64,000 bases of DNA from Trichocoleus desertorum NBK24 (GTDB lineage: Bacteria > Cyanobacteriota > Cyanobacteriia > FACHB-46). A model generated the notes under the pieces. It had not been told where the DNA came from. It did no database searches and saw only the letters and a program-made list of their open reading frames with translations. The translations under genes were made by a program, and so were the position numbers. The stretch is from positions 3,139,628-3,203,627 of the forward strand of contig NZ_CP116619.1 of NCBI RefSeq assembly GCF_030409055.1, given 5' to 3'. Below are positions 17,877 through 37,600 of the stretch, piece by piece (the first letter of the stretch is position 1; every line of letters begins with the position of its first letter).

Positions 17877-17999
17877 TCAGTGGGAGGAGGTGGAGCGATC
17901 GCAACTTTCCTCTCTTCATTTTCACCAAAGTTGCTCAACTTTTTCCGGAGCTACCCACCCCTTCCTAGAAGAAAGGAATGGTAGATGCACCCTGAATTT

Positions 18000-18030
18000 A
18001 ATCCCTGGCCTTGCGCTGGGGATTTTTTTT
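18000..18030 (+). terminator. Terminator, plus strand
   Basis: AATCCC/GGGATT stem with a GC-rich loop (CTGGCCTTGCGCTGG region), followed by a run of eight T to position 18030. It is 124 bases past the DUF4177-like gene and touches the 3' end of the convergent fghA. Confidence 0.7.
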
Positions 18031-27302: not shown

Positions 27303-28499
27303 TTGCAGCATCTTCTCTTCATCACCGAGCGATTTCCACCAGATTTGGGGGGAGTCGCCACCAGTGCAGGTCGCATCACCGCCACACTCTGCCAATTGGG
27401 TGTGGATGTGGATGTCGTGACCTGGAGCCGCTATTTGCCGCCGGGAGAGGTGCTGCCACCGGAGGCGATCGCAACTAGCGCCGGGAAATTGTGCGTGCAT
27501 CGCATTGGTCTCTACCGCGCCTGGGATATGACGATGCCACACACCCTGAATGTGCTGGATTGGCTGCACCAAACTCATGCCTACGACGCGGTTTGGGGGC
27601 ATTATGTCTTTCCCTCTGGGTTTCTAGCAACTTGGTGGGCAGAAGGCCAGCAGCTACCAAGTGTAGTGAGTGCTAGAGGAAATGACATCGATCGCATCTT
27701 GTTTCCGCCCGGTGACTTTGCCCGCTTGCAATGGACTTTAGAGCGAGCCAGTTTAGTCACAGCCGTGAGCCAAGACTTAAGCCAAAAAATTCAGCGCTTG
27801 TGCAGACGAGACGACACACTATTACTGCCTAACGTTGTAGATACTCAACAATTCCGCCCCACAGGGTTGGATAAAGGACTGGACAAAGAGGCGATCGCTG
27901 CCCTTAAAGCCACTCTAGGCATCGCTCCAGAGGAAATCGTTTTAGGATTTTCCGGCGAACTGCGCGAGAAAAAAGGCCAGCAATTTCTCCTCGATGCCCT
28001 CACCACAGTCCGAACCCAACGCCCAACTTGCCTGCTGATTATTGGCGAAGTGCGACCGACCGAGCAAGCCGTGTTGCAAACCTACGCCATGCAGCACCCC
28101 GAAAACGCCCAACGGGTCATTGTGACAGGCCACTTACCCAGTCCAGAAGCCGTGGCGCAGCATTTGCAACTCTGCGACCTCTACTTGCAACCGTCCCTGT
28201 GGGAAGGCATGCCCAACGCTCTTTTAGAAGCAATGGCCTGTGAGCTGTGTTGTATTGCTAGTGATGCAGGCGGCAATGCCGAAGTCATCGAACACGGCAA
28301 AAATGGCTTTCTGCTGCCTCGGTTTCAGTTACATCAACTCGGCGCGATCGCCCTAGAACTCTTAGACCAAGAACCTACAGCCCGAAAAACCATCGGCCAA
28401 GCGGCCCGCGATCGCATCCTCTCTCACTACTCCTTAGCCCAAGAAAAAACTAAACTTCAAGCCATCTGCGATCGGTTACAGCAGTTTTTGCCCCCCTAG
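27303..28499 (+). CDS. GT4-type glycosyltransferase
   Basis: 398 residues, TTG start at 27303 (no ATG between the cyclophilin stop and the homologous region). The N-terminal donor/acceptor half has FPPDLGGVATSAGRI; the C-terminal GT-B half has FSGELREKKGQQFLLDAL and the EGMPNALLEAMACELCCIASDAGG nucleotide-sugar motif. It probably builds an exopolysaccharide or glycolipid. The last codons, the stop TAG and the bases past it lie in the palindromic repeat at 28491-28520, so the native C-terminus may have been replaced. It overlaps the convergent glycosyltransferase by 24 bases. Confidence 0.88.
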   Translation: MQHLLFITERFPPDLGGVATSAGRITATLCQLGVDVDVVTWSRYLPPGEVLPPEAIATSAGKLCVHRIGLYRAWDMTMPHTLNVLDWLHQTHAYDAVWGHYVFPSGFLATWWAEGQQLPSVVSARGNDIDRILFPPGDFARLQWTLERASLVTAVSQDLSQKIQRLCRRDDTLLLPNVVDTQQFRPTGLDKGLDKEAIAALKATLGIAPEEIVLGFSGELREKKGQQFLLDALTTVRTQRPTCLLIIGEVRPTEQAVLQTYAMQHPENAQRVIVTGHLPSPEAVAQHLQLCDLYLQPSLWEGMPNALLEAMACELCCIASDAGGNAEVIEHGKNGFLLPRFQLHQLGAIALELLDQEPTARKTIGQAARDRILSHYSLAQEKTKLQAICDRLQQFLPP

Positions 28500-29813
28500 C
28501 CCCCCAAATTTGGGGGGAACAAGTGTAATACCCATCTCTTCGTAGGCCGAAACCAAAGCCGTTCCTGCCTGCTGCCAAGCGTAGTGCGCTTCAATCCGTC
28601 GTCGAGCCGCGATCGCCAGACTCCCTCCCAGTTCTGTCTCCGTTCGTAACCTCAGCATCGCATCCTTCAACGCTTTGGCAGATCCGGGTGGCACCAACAG
28701 CAAATGCTCATCGTGAGTTCCTAACTCTCGCACCACAGGCAAATCACTCGCAATTACAGGCGTTCCAGAAGCCATCCCCTCCAACACCTTCAGTGGACAA
28801 CAGCCCTGCACCAAATTGCGATCATTCGCCGTCAAAGGAGCCGCGATCGCATCCGCTTGGTGCATCAGCGCCACCAATTCTGCTTGAGAAACAGGCGCGA
28901 TGATTTGCACGCGATCGGCCACCCCCAACTTCGCCGCCAACCTTTGCAGGGCGATCGCCTGATCCCCTCGTCCCTGCCCCACAATGGTTAGCCGACCGGG
29001 GAAATCTCGACAGTACAAAGCCAACGCTTCAATCGTCAAACCCACCCCCTGCCAAGCCGACAGCGTACCGAAGTAGAGCAAATGAAAGTGAGAGGATTGA
29101 GACATTAGCCCCCTAAATCCCCTTTTCTGGGATGCCCGATAGGGCTTTATGCTGGGGGACTTTGAGTCTAGTTCCCCCCAAATTTGGGGGGCTAGGGGGG
29201 CCTCTAAAGGTAAATTTGAGCCAGGGGCTTGATACCGAAAAATCTCTAAATCCACCCCATTCGGAATCACCCGAATTTTGCTGGCGGCCACCCCTCGACT
29301 CACCAAATAAGCTTGTGTCACCGCACTTGGCGTCACCACCAAATCCGCCGCATCCAAACAAACCTGCTCCTGTGCCACCAGCTTCTGCATCAACTCCGCA
29401 TCCTCAGCCACCGCCGGATAGCGATACTTCAGCTCAATTGATGGCAACCCATTCACCTCAAAAATCAAGCGATCGCACAACCGATCCTTGTTCTGCGCGA
29501 TCGGAAACCCCTCAAACGGCGATCGCACGTGTACCACTTCAAACCGCTGCCCTTGCCACCACTGCCCCAACCGCAGCCGAAAATCCAACACCCGCCGAAT
29601 CAAAGTATCCCCCACCGCAGGCAACGCCGATTGCCTCACCTGGGGCCACAACTCCCGCCCCGCCTCAGCCGCCAAAGTCGGAGCCACCGTCACCAACTCC
29701 ACCCCTCCAAAAGCCTCACCTAACGCCTGAGTAAAAGCCGCAATATGCACCGCCGCCCCCTTTGGTGCAGGCACCGTATCGAATGAAATGTAAGCAAGTT
29801 GCGATCGCAGCAT
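28476..29813 (-). CDS. GT4-type glycosyltransferase carrying an in-frame palindromic insert
   Basis: 445 residues. The N-terminal domain includes SFDTVPAPKGAAVHIAAFTQ and the C-terminal GT-B domain includes LLYFGTLSAWQGVGLTIEAL and CPLKVLEGMASGTPVIASD. Between the halves, about residues 205-236, a 94-bp palindromic element is translated (APLAPQIWGELDSKSPSIKP and onward). It keeps the frame and has no stop. It falls in the interdomain linker just after NGVDLEIF, a tolerant position. The extreme C-terminus (LVPPKFGGLGGQKLL) is also repeat derived. Function is probably sugar transfer in envelope polysaccharide synthesis; activity after insertion is unproven. Confidence 0.85.
   Translation of the reverse strand: MLRSQLAYISFDTVPAPKGAAVHIAAFTQALGEAFGGVELVTVAPTLAAEAGRELWPQVRQSALPAVGDTLIRRVLDFRLRLGQWWQGQRFEVVHVRSPFEGFPIAQNKDRLCDRLIFEVNGLPSIELKYRYPAVAEDAELMQKLVAQEQVCLDAADLVVTPSAVTQAYLVSRGVAASKIRVIPNGVDLEIFRYQAPGSNLPLEAPLAPQIWGELDSKSPSIKPYRASQKRGFRGLMSQSSHFHLLYFGTLSAWQGVGLTIEALALYCRDFPGRLTIVGQGRGDQAIALQRLAAKLGVADRVQIIAPVSQAELVALMHQADAIAAPLTANDRNLVQGCCPLKVLEGMASGTPVIASDLPVVRELGTHDEHLLLVPPGSAKALKDAMLRLRTETELGGSLAIAARRRIEAHYAWQQAGTALVSAYEEMGITLVPPKFGGLGGQKLL
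28491..28520. repeat. Palindromic repeat, partial copy shared by two gene ends
   Basis: Contains the 18-base perfect palindrome CCCCCCAAATTTGGGGGG (28500-28517), preceded by CCCCCCTAG. The whole 30 bases are identical, in inverted orientation, to the right part of the element at 29108-29201. It provides the last two codons and stop of the plus-strand glycosyltransferase and the C-terminal codons of the minus-strand one. It may also act as a bidirectional terminator hairpin. Confidence 0.9.
29108..29201. mobile_element. MITE-like palindromic element inserted in frame in a glycosyltransferase gene
   Basis: 94 bases bounded by GCCCCCTA on the left and TAGGGGGGC on the right (imperfect terminal inverted repeats), with CCCCCCAAATTTGGGGGG at 29174-29191 inside. 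Its CCCCCTAAATCCCC opening and CTAGGGGGG ending are the look of small non-autonomous repeats scattered in cyanobacterial genomes. Read on the minus strand it stays open in the host frame. No transposase is encoded. Confidence 0.8.
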
Positions 29814-29843: not shown

Positions 29844-29951
29844 GGAGAAGAGTTAGGAGGTGAGGAGAGAGGGGTGAGGAGCTACGAACCAATAGCCAAT
29901 CTTTAACACGACCAAAGACTCGAAACACTCCCACTCAGCTTCGTTTGGAGG

Positions 29952-30839
29952 CAGGGTGGTTTCATGTTAGCCAAGAAAAAACCTCATGGACTTGATTGGC
30001 GAGATCGCGTTGGCAATCAGGAACAGTCCGCATCCCTAAGCGACGAGCTAACGTGATGAGGAACGAATGAACGACAGCCCAACTAATCGGAGCCTGCCCT
30101 CCTCGTCGGGGTGGGTCATCTTCTTTGAAGGTGACATTTTTGACCCAATGCAGGCCATTCTCGATGTGCCAATGGCTGCGAATCCACTCTAGAAAGACGA
30201 CGGCTTCGTGCTGAGCATTGCTGAGGTAGAAGTGGTCTTCCTCAAACGCTTGGCCTGAGCGAGTGCCTCGACGATGAACCCACAGCAGTCGCGACAGACC
30301 TGCTTGAGCCCAACGCTTGGGGAGAAGACCCGAGAAGGGATAGACCCCAATGCTTCGCTGAGTCTGACGTCCATGCTGGGTTTCTTGCTGACTCGCTTGA
30401 GCCCAAGGAGCCTGTTGCTGCACAAGGCGTTGAGCCCGTTGGTAAAGCTGCTTTTGATTGGCTTTGAGGGCAATGACATAGGAGCAATGCCGGGACTCAA
30501 GCAGTTCTAAAGTGCCGACTTGCAGATGCAAAGCATCCAAGCTGAAGCCGAGAGGCAAGGATTGGGCCAGGGTGGGAGCTGCCGTGACACTTTGCACCAA
30601 GCGCTTCGCCACCGCAATTTCACTCTCCCTGCGGTTGAACATCAAGGCTAACTGCACCACCCCACTTCTTTGCCCATACACGGACACCAGGCAGGCAAAA
30701 TCCTGCGCTGACGTTTGTCCTCCGCTGGAGGTGCATTTGATACTCTTGCCATCAATTGCCAGTCCAACTCTGTCCACTCTGGAGCATGAGAGAGTGCCCA
30801 AACGTTAAAGGCATCGACCCATGCTTGGGCATCCACTCA
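29952..30839 (-). mobile_element. ISAs1-family insertion sequence remnant
   Basis: The 3' end of the element is marked by CAGGGTGGTTTCATG at 29952, which resembles ISAs1-type terminal repeats. The 5' end of the transposase and the other terminal repeat are missing; homology stops at about 30839, exactly where a GC-rich palindromic element begins. The element is therefore truncated and probably immobile. Confidence 0.75.
29962..30836 (-). pseudogene. ISAs1 family transposase, truncated and frameshifted
   Basis: The main frame (to 30801) encodes the DDE core: LAIDGKSIKCTSSGG (first Asp), FSLDALHLQ (second Asp) and HWHIENGLHWVKNVTFKEDD (Glu). The preceding family segment, DAQAWVDAFNVWALSHAPEW, is encoded in another frame between about 30836 and 30760, so a frameshift lies near 30755-30775. 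Upstream of that an in-frame TGA ends the similarity and roughly 80 N-terminal residues are missing. The gene is dead as it stands. Confidence 0.85.
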
Positions 30840-30954: not shown

Positions 30955-31106
30955 AACAGATGGGATAAGATAACGAAGCACACGTGAACAGTAGCCAGAT
31001 AGGGAAAATCCGGTGCGAGTCCGGTGCTGTGCCGCAGCTGTCAATGGAGCTGAAATTTCGGATTTGGTAGAGTATCAGCTCTCCTCAGCCAGAACGCCTA
31101 TCTGTT
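30955..31106 (+). promoter_or_regulatory. Cobalamin riboswitch upstream of the cbiX gene
   Basis: The conserved core is visible: AGGGAAAATCCGGTGCGAGT, then CCGGTGCTGTGCCGCAGCTG, and later CTCAGCCAGAACGCC, matching the B12 aptamer consensus (GGGAA, CCGGTGC repeat, AGCCAG-A-CGCC). A P1 stem closes it: AACAGAT (30955-30961) pairs with ATCTGTT (31100-31106). It lies 48 bases before the ATG of a cobalt chelatase. Binding of adenosylcobalamin should lower expression, probably by masking the ribosome site, as no T-rich terminator is seen. Confidence 0.85.
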
Positions 31107-31153
31107 ACCACTTCACTCAGTTCCTGCGTCGCACGGGAAAGAGGATTCAACTC

Positions 31154-32209
31154 ATGCTAAACACAAATTCAACCCTGTTGAATGCAATCGATGCTGCTGC
31201 GCCTACAGCACCATTACCCCCTCTGCCCATGCAGCGTCCCTTACTGTTAATTGGACATGGCAGTCGGGATGAAGATGGACGGCGGAGCTTCCTGGAATTT
31301 GCCGCAGCTTACCAAGCTCTAGATACCTCCCGCCCTGCTGTCCCTTGTTTCCTGGAACTCACTGCCCCCTCCATTCAAGAAGGCGTCGATCAGTGTGTCG
31401 AGCAAGGCTACACTGAATTTTCCGTCTTGCCCATTTTGCTCTTTGCCGCACGGCATAACAAATTTGATGTCACCAACGAACTCGATCGCGCCCGTCAGCG
31501 GCATCCCCAAGTCAAATTCCACTATGGTCGGCACTTTGGCATCACTCCTGGCATTCTAGACCTGTGGCGATCGCGCCTTGCCGAACTCGACCAACCCCAA
31601 TGGAACCCCCAAGGCATCGAGCGTAAAGATACCGTCCTGCTGTTCGTTGGTCGCGGAGCCAGCGATCCCGATGCCAACGGTGATGTGTACAAAATGGCTC
31701 GGATTCTCTGGGAAGGCAGCGGCTATAGCACCGTCGAAACTTGCTTTATTGGCATCACCCATCCCCGCCTAGAAGAAGGTTTCCGTCGCGCCCGCCTATA
31801 CGAACCCAAGCGCATCATTGTCCTGCCTTACTTCCTGTTTACCGGGTTGCTGATGAAGAAAATTTTCGACATCACCGCCCAGCAACAAGAGCAGTATCCC
31901 GGCATTTCTATGACCTGCCTGCCAGAAATGGGCTTGCATCCCCAACTCTTCTCGATTCTACGAGAACGGGAAATTGAAACTCAGCTCGGCCAAGTGCAGA
32001 TGAACTGCGAAATGTGTAAGTTTCGCTTAGCGGCTGTTGGCAATGGTGGCGGTCATGGTCATGATCACGGCCATAATCATGCTCAGGCTCATGGACATGA
32101 TCACGGTCACGGTCACGGTCACGGACATGATCACGGTCACGATCATCCTGCTGTTGACCCCTATGCTGAGCCTGCTCAATACCACGAGAGAATTTGGCAA
32201 GTTCCCTAA
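31154..32209 (+). CDS. cbiX: Sirohydrochlorin cobaltochelatase, long form with His-rich tail
   Basis: 351 residues from ATG 31154, with AGAGGA as ribosome site. Two CbiX repeats are visible: [19 protein letters not shown] with [14 protein letters not shown] (metal-binding His), and [20 protein letters not shown] with LPYFLFTG. It inserts Co2+ into sirohydrochlorin at the start of corrin synthesis. The C-terminus (about residues 298-333) is a dense His-Gly-Asp run ([20 protein letters not shown] and onward), probably for metal storage or delivery. The cobalamin riboswitch upstream supports the assignment. SirB-type iron chelation is a less likely alternative. Confidence 0.92.
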
Positions 32210-37410: not shown

Positions 37411-37600
37411 GGGTTCCCCGCAACGCCGTCTTACCTCAGTTTTTGACCTGGAATAAATCCAGGTGGGTACCTTAGCTCTAGTTTTAAGTTTCCGAGTACG
37501 TGCCCGGTCTACTGCCACTAGACGCTTAAATCAGTTCCCGTATTAGCGAAGCATAGATCATAAAACATTATTGGCAGTCACCAACGCCGCAGTAGAACCT
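37411..37600 (-). ncRNA. ssaA: Probable 6S RNA
   Basis: A 190-base gene-free stretch directly downstream of purK, the known position of 6S RNA (ssaA) in several cyanobacteria. The transcript would begin AGGTTCTACTGCGGC and end with GCGGGGAACCC, so GGTTC and GAACC close a terminal stem. A -10-like TAAAAT lies at 37608-37613, seven bases before the proposed first base. Internal stems include CTACTGCC/GGCAGTAG-type pairings around a central unpaired region, as expected for a mimic of an open promoter. It would bind RNA polymerase holoenzyme and modulate growth-phase transcription. The call rests on position, size and stem ends, not on alignment. Confidence 0.6.

Follow-up and report, generated by a model that had tools for sequence, protein, structure and literature searches.

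How can a protein gene take up a palindromic repeat and still be read from end to end? The question is raised by a glycosyltransferase (GT) gene of the cyanobacterium Trichocoleus desertorum NBK24, located in the 64,000-nucleotide stretch of DNA analysed here (the window), which contains a 94-bp palindrome that starts GCCCCCCTAGCCCCCCAAATTTGGGGGG and ends GGGGATTTAGGGGGC. A sequence-only reading of this locus had proposed that the element stays open on the coding strand of the GT, that its frame avoids the TAG codons present in other frames, and that it adds about 32 residues between the two domains of the enzyme. All three proposals agree with the open reading frame (ORF), a six-frame check and the domain limits. 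Stop codons occur in five of the six frames of the repeat, and the sixth, stop-free frame is the one used by the GT. The 94 bp encode the peptide APLAPQIWGELDSKSPSIKPYRASQKRGFRG at GT residues 205-235, with the last base falling in codon 236. Because the N-terminal GT4 domain recognized by Pfam (residues 19-190) ends at residue 190 and the C-terminal glycosyltransferase group 1 domain (244-404) begins only at residue 244, residues 205-236 lie in the inter-domain linker, a placement that follows from the Pfam limits; the PDB relatives cover the C-terminal domain, and an AlphaFold model of the GT based on a two-row alignment has a pLDDT of 34, too low for the model to be of use. As RNA, the 94-bp stretch folds at -49.8 kcal/mol, which is stable yet unexceptional for its composition (z -1.15). 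The window contains two occurrences of the 18-bp hairpin core CCCCCCAAATTTGGGGGG, against a chance expectation of 0.00, and 100 shuffles never produced it. The features of the locus are collected in Table 1.

Table 1. The palindromic repeat, its host gene and neighbouring features, with coordinates in the window.
Feature	Coordinates	Strand	Basis
Convergent GT4-type glycosyltransferase gene, stop codon inside half-repeat	27303..28499	plus	ORF, Pfam
Host gene: GT-B family glycosyltransferase, 445 aa	28476..29813	minus	ORF, Pfam, PDB relatives, omega
Single-hairpin copy of the repeat (half-copy), at the 3' ends of the two convergent GT genes	28490..28519	plus	Sequence, ORFs, hairpin pattern, orthologs
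94-bp palindromic repeat: two-hairpin core plus extra inner GCCCTATCGGGC palindrome	29108..29201	minus	Sequence, six-frame check, genome copies, orthologs with and without insert
ISAs1-family transposase gene remnant, 5' part missing, with GCAGGGTGGTTTCAT end	29951..30801	minus	NCBIfam, end motif, MITE ends

The half-copy is read from both sides. The plus-strand GT gene takes its stop codon from it (TAG, 28497-28499), and the minus-strand GT obtains LVPPKFGGLGG from it close to the C-terminus, a tail that is missing in the sister species. Elsewhere in the window, a match to the AdoCbl-II type cobalamin riboswitch (30986-31107; 37.4 bits against a gathering threshold of 36.5) lies over the start of ORF 31013-32209 and just upstream of it; the product of this ORF resembles a CbiX-type chelatase with a His-rich tail. 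Rfam also matches the nitrogen stress-induced RNA NsiR1 at 17979-18030 (54.7 bits) and 6S RNA at 37411-37598.

The palindrome belongs to a dispersed family. Searched with the GT stretch, the genome yielded more than 20 further partial copies, and a hairpin pattern matched 30 times in this genome, 43 times in the sister species (G002) and 5 times in a third species (G001), all of them congeneric; the reversed pattern, used as a control, gave 0 matches. These copy counts derive from pattern searches and inspected loci. The element does recur in this genome, in many copies, but the whole 94-bp form matched no second copy here, and exact 94-bp copies are found in the sister genome, at three loci. 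In aligned copies, the common form is a discrete core of 69-72 bp with sharp ends (roughly GCCCCCCTAR-CCCCCC-N6-GGGGGG-AAC...-TCCCCC-N5-GGGGGA-TTTA-GGGGGC), whose flanks are unrelated except in larger MITE copies. Further forms comprise single-hairpin copies and a subfamily of 94-96 bp that encloses a GCCCTANCGGGC-like palindrome. Within the class, 90 of 388 genomes, representing 56 of 160 genera, have related hairpins. Among 72,556 plasmids, 18 records match the 70-bp core, all cyanobacterial; four exact matches to the repeat were obtained in viral contigs and none in phage records, and Rfam contains no family for the element.

How the repeat spreads is suggested by its larger copies. Many intergenic copies, as well as a copy in a CobN gene, form the middle of an element of 164-190 bp (218 bp in one instance), with ends like GCAGGG(C/T)(G/T)GTTTCATAC and with duplications of 9-10 bp at the borders in 8 of 13 cases, for instance TATTAGAGG, GCCAACCGG and CTAAAGATG. 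On the strength of its ISAs1-type ends and these duplications, the larger element is therefore a MITE with ISAs1-type ends. Four of the larger elements sit in sequence resembling the hairpin apex of other copies, with duplications CCAATACTGG, CAGAATTGG and CCAGAATTGG at such apex-like sites, which may reflect a target preference. The transposase remnant of Table 1 lies about 0.75 kb from the GT insert and scores 142.9 bits with NCBIfam (cut-off 70), and its GCAGGGTGGTTTCAT end matches the ends of larger MITEs elsewhere in the genome. It was rejected as a complete insertion sequence, since it starts at profile position 77 and shows a single terminal repeat. A MITE-type end also borders an ISAs1 remnant in the sister species; such ends were not found beside the fuller ISAs1 copies, and no intact mobilising copy with these ends was found. 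A link to RAYT (Y1) transposases was likewise rejected, as none of 20 Y1_Tnp loci in the three genomes has the repeat in the flanks inspected. The GT copy itself has neither MITE arms nor a visible target duplication, so that its own route may have been either through a MITE that has since eroded or through a separate mobility of the core.

The GT is one of many host genes. Counting a copy as inside an ORF when it lies at least 25 codons from either ORF end, 10 of the 29 copy loci of this genome fall within long ORFs. By Pfam, the hosts are the GT, an Orn/Lys/Arg decarboxylase, a nickel insertion protein (LarC), an RNA pseudouridine synthase, an AMP-binding ligase (which we take to be MenE-like), a type III pantothenate kinase (CoaX), a hydantoinase/oxoprolinase, an Eco57I-type methylase, a TPR protein and one further protein that Pfam leaves unassigned. 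The sister species likewise has 10 in-frame intragenic loci, among them one in an epimerase-like gene and one in a CobN/Mg-chelatase, and 7 insert sites are common to both genomes. At 5 of these shared sites the third species has insert-like residues, which are clear in MenE and the methylase (these two copies being among its 5 pattern matches) and degenerate in the pseudouridine synthase, CoaX and the oxoprolinase. Insert lengths at the shared sites vary among the species, yet all ORFs remain open. Of the six frames of the 30-bp hairpin, the four without stops all occur within genes, and the two that bear TAG never do. The share of copies inside genes is lower elsewhere, with 5 of 31 in genome G117 (two of them in one large protein) and 1 of 50 in genome G132, where the pattern matches 116 times. 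In-frame, stop-free copies are also found in annotated genes: a nonribosomal peptide synthetase (NRPS) of Gloeocapsa sp. PCC 7428, a helicase of Pseudanabaena sp. ABRG5-3 and a DUF1156 protein on plasmid pAQ6 of Picosynechococcus sp. PCC 7002. The latter protein carries a further in-frame Pro/Gly insert, LPPNPQSGGSMPPDPQSGGIGSG, which is missing in its PCC 7003 relative.

Comparison with orthologs bears on the age of these insertions. The GT of the sister species (88% identity) has an insert at the same junction, in the 70-bp form and in frame, reading EAPLAPQIWGEIDSKSPKFGGFRG. The residues are not a general property of the enzyme: four distant orthologs, from genomes G017, G086 and G012 and from Vasconcelosia minhoensis, lack the insert. 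The two outcomes named as counter-evidence by the sequence-only reading, the same residues in all distant orthologs and a lack of further genomic copies, are both contradicted by the data. On the simplest reading of these alignments, the GT insertion would predate the split of the two species, and its inner part would later have changed by 24 bp with the frame kept. In the GT of genome G008, from another family, the same linker is expanded by an unrelated 15-bp minisatellite, an SQIHD tandem repeat. At the other shared host sites, outgroups are either empty or carry other palindrome-like inserts; for instance, the pseudouridine synthase of G012 carries ALTPNPSPKAGRG..., the TPR protein of the third species carries SPLAPLLQERGAAGGVRS, and in three species the LarC linker is occupied by three different inserts. 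Inserts of this kind in relatives, with SPLTLLPRERGAAGGERSG, SPAGEGLGERS and ALTPNPSPKAGRG, lie in the same linkers at L163 and L172 (LarC), L287 (pseudouridine synthase) and L302 (TPR). The linkers therefore seem to accept several repeat families. For the L109 gene, the epimerase and CobN, the copies are lineage-specific and the sites are empty in relatives.

Taken together, these observations favour a reading to which we assign a probability of about 0.88: the 94 bp in the GT represent a cyanobacterial palindromic repeat, dispersed and non-autonomous, of which one copy was inserted in frame here before the species split and has been tolerated as a flexible spacer. The repeat would have entered the inter-domain linker by transposition, probably within a 164-190-bp MITE with ISAs1-type ends or as a derivative of one, as is seen for many copies although not for the GT copy. 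It would be translated in the cell as a proline/glycine-rich spacer of about 32 residues, the peptide itself being presumably close to neutral. The GT would have stayed functional because the linker tolerates a change of length and because the frame in which the repeat is read has no stop codon.

Rates of substitution between this species and its sister (omega, Nei-Gojobori) bear directly on this reading and on its rivals. In the GT, omega is 0.081 and 0.085 in the two flanks and 1.28 in the insert stretch, the latter measured over 46 codons of which part are flank. In the other six shared genes, flank omega ranges from 0.05 to 0.19, apart from one stretch of 31 codons at 0.43, and the insert stretches range from 0.14 (oxoprolinase, with much flank included) to 1.62 (methylase). 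Judged by these ratios, the protein sequence around the GT insert is under purifying selection and the insert is not, the insert peptide is not conserved as such, and the host proteins look functional.

The strongest rival holds that the repeat is kept in genes for a function, either because its structure as DNA or mRNA, a hairpin or a G*G:C intrastrand triplex, slows the polymerase or ribosome between domains, or because the spacer aids folding or regulation. Retention of seven sites in two species and five in three would fit this proposal, as would the position of several known inserts between domains and the association of triplex motifs of such layout with altered genome stability in E. 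coli, reported in Holder 2015 (PMC4666352). However, a function for the peptide sits poorly with the high omega and variable length of the GT insert, outgroup enzymes work without an insert or with unrelated palindromes, and an insert that does no harm and is difficult to excise exactly would persist just as well. Functional retention is accordingly considered unlikely. A gene in decay, in which the repeat disrupts the GT and the open frame is luck, is far less credible still. Insertions usually disrupt genes, and the repeat is indeed depleted inside the genes of other genomes such as G132, but the low omega on both sides of the insert since the species split, the preservation of the frame in both species despite the 24-bp difference in insert length, and the recurrence of the same pattern in six other genes all speak against it. 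Finally, the idea that a normal low-complexity linker has come to look like the repeat through chance or convergence, conceivable in that linkers are often Pro/Gly-rich and variable and that this one is expanded differently in G008, is refuted by the near-exact match in DNA to dispersed copies, whose ends are sharp, and by the empty control.

Palindromes that code for protein have been described mainly in Rickettsia and Wolbachia; elsewhere there are scattered cases among REPs. In cyanobacteria, the small dispersed repeats (SDR) of Elhai's 2008 work are reportedly small mobile repeats. The Rickettsia palindromic elements (RPE; Ogata 2000, 2002) are dispersed palindromes of about 100 bp that lie in frame in many unrelated protein genes and for which orthologs without insert exist (PMC10969869). 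The cyanobacterial repeat behaves in the same way, as the sequence-only reading had suggested, being in frame in many unrelated genes (10 loci here and 10 in the sister) and absent from GT orthologs as well as from those of several further host proteins. In contrast to the RPE, it is cyanobacterial with a GC-rich two-hairpin core, the likeness described here being one of behaviour; it uses four reading frames and both orientations; and many of its copies reside inside a MITE with ISAs1-type ends. The best reading is one of selfish palindromes tolerated as spacers, RPE-like in behaviour and forming a separate family.

Other known repeats share single traits with this family. The GTAG/CGTC-tagged REPs (Di Nocera 2013) are short palindromes, often in inverted doublets, some of which lie in ORFs and some of which give TAG stops (PMC3733652), as the half-copy does for the plus-strand GT. 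The hairpins of the present repeat are instead flanked by CTAG/CTAA and GGGGGGAA, with no GTAG/CGTC tag in aligned copies, and membership of that group was rejected by both the tag and the RAYT tests. REPINs (Bertels and Rainey 2011) also consist of two inverted hairpin units, which move as one doublet tied to RAYT transposases (PMC3116915), whereas the only signs of mobility here are the ISAs1-type ends and 9-10-bp duplications of the larger form. GC-rich intrastrand triplex motifs are a class reported to be very frequent in cyanobacteria (PMC4666352), and each half of the repeat has their succession of C-tract, G-tract and G-tract: aligned copies have a pyrimidine-purine-purine layout, TCCCCC-N5-GGGGGA-TTTA-GGGGGC, with its mirror on the other strand, a layout read from the sequence alone. 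The accessible portion of PMC4666352 describes neither this sequence nor translated copies. The earlier statement that no equivalent is known needs qualification. A literature search by repeat sequence returned nothing relevant, and no earlier report of this sequence or its in-frame use was found in a comparison that leaves out Elhai 2008 and the supplement of PMC3733652, but in-frame REPs are known from several bacteria and REP families from cyanobacteria (PMC3733652).

A more ambitious possibility, considered unlikely, is that the family is not merely tolerated but is a recurrent source of inter-domain spacers, kept since its DNA or mRNA structure, or the spacer itself, tunes the expression or folding of housekeeping enzymes. 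If this were true, one mobile repeat family would diversify protein linkers across the phylum. For annotators and structure modellers, the motifs PPxPPxLGG or APLAPQxWGE in cyanobacterial proteins signal a repeat-derived segment, and the annotated case in PCC 7002 would permit direct tests. With ten in-frame sites in one cyanobacterial genome, several of them traced through three species with empty outgroups, the system lets one measure how, how often and at what cost mobile DNA lengthens proteins, and it bears on whether linkers are the sole surviving landing places.
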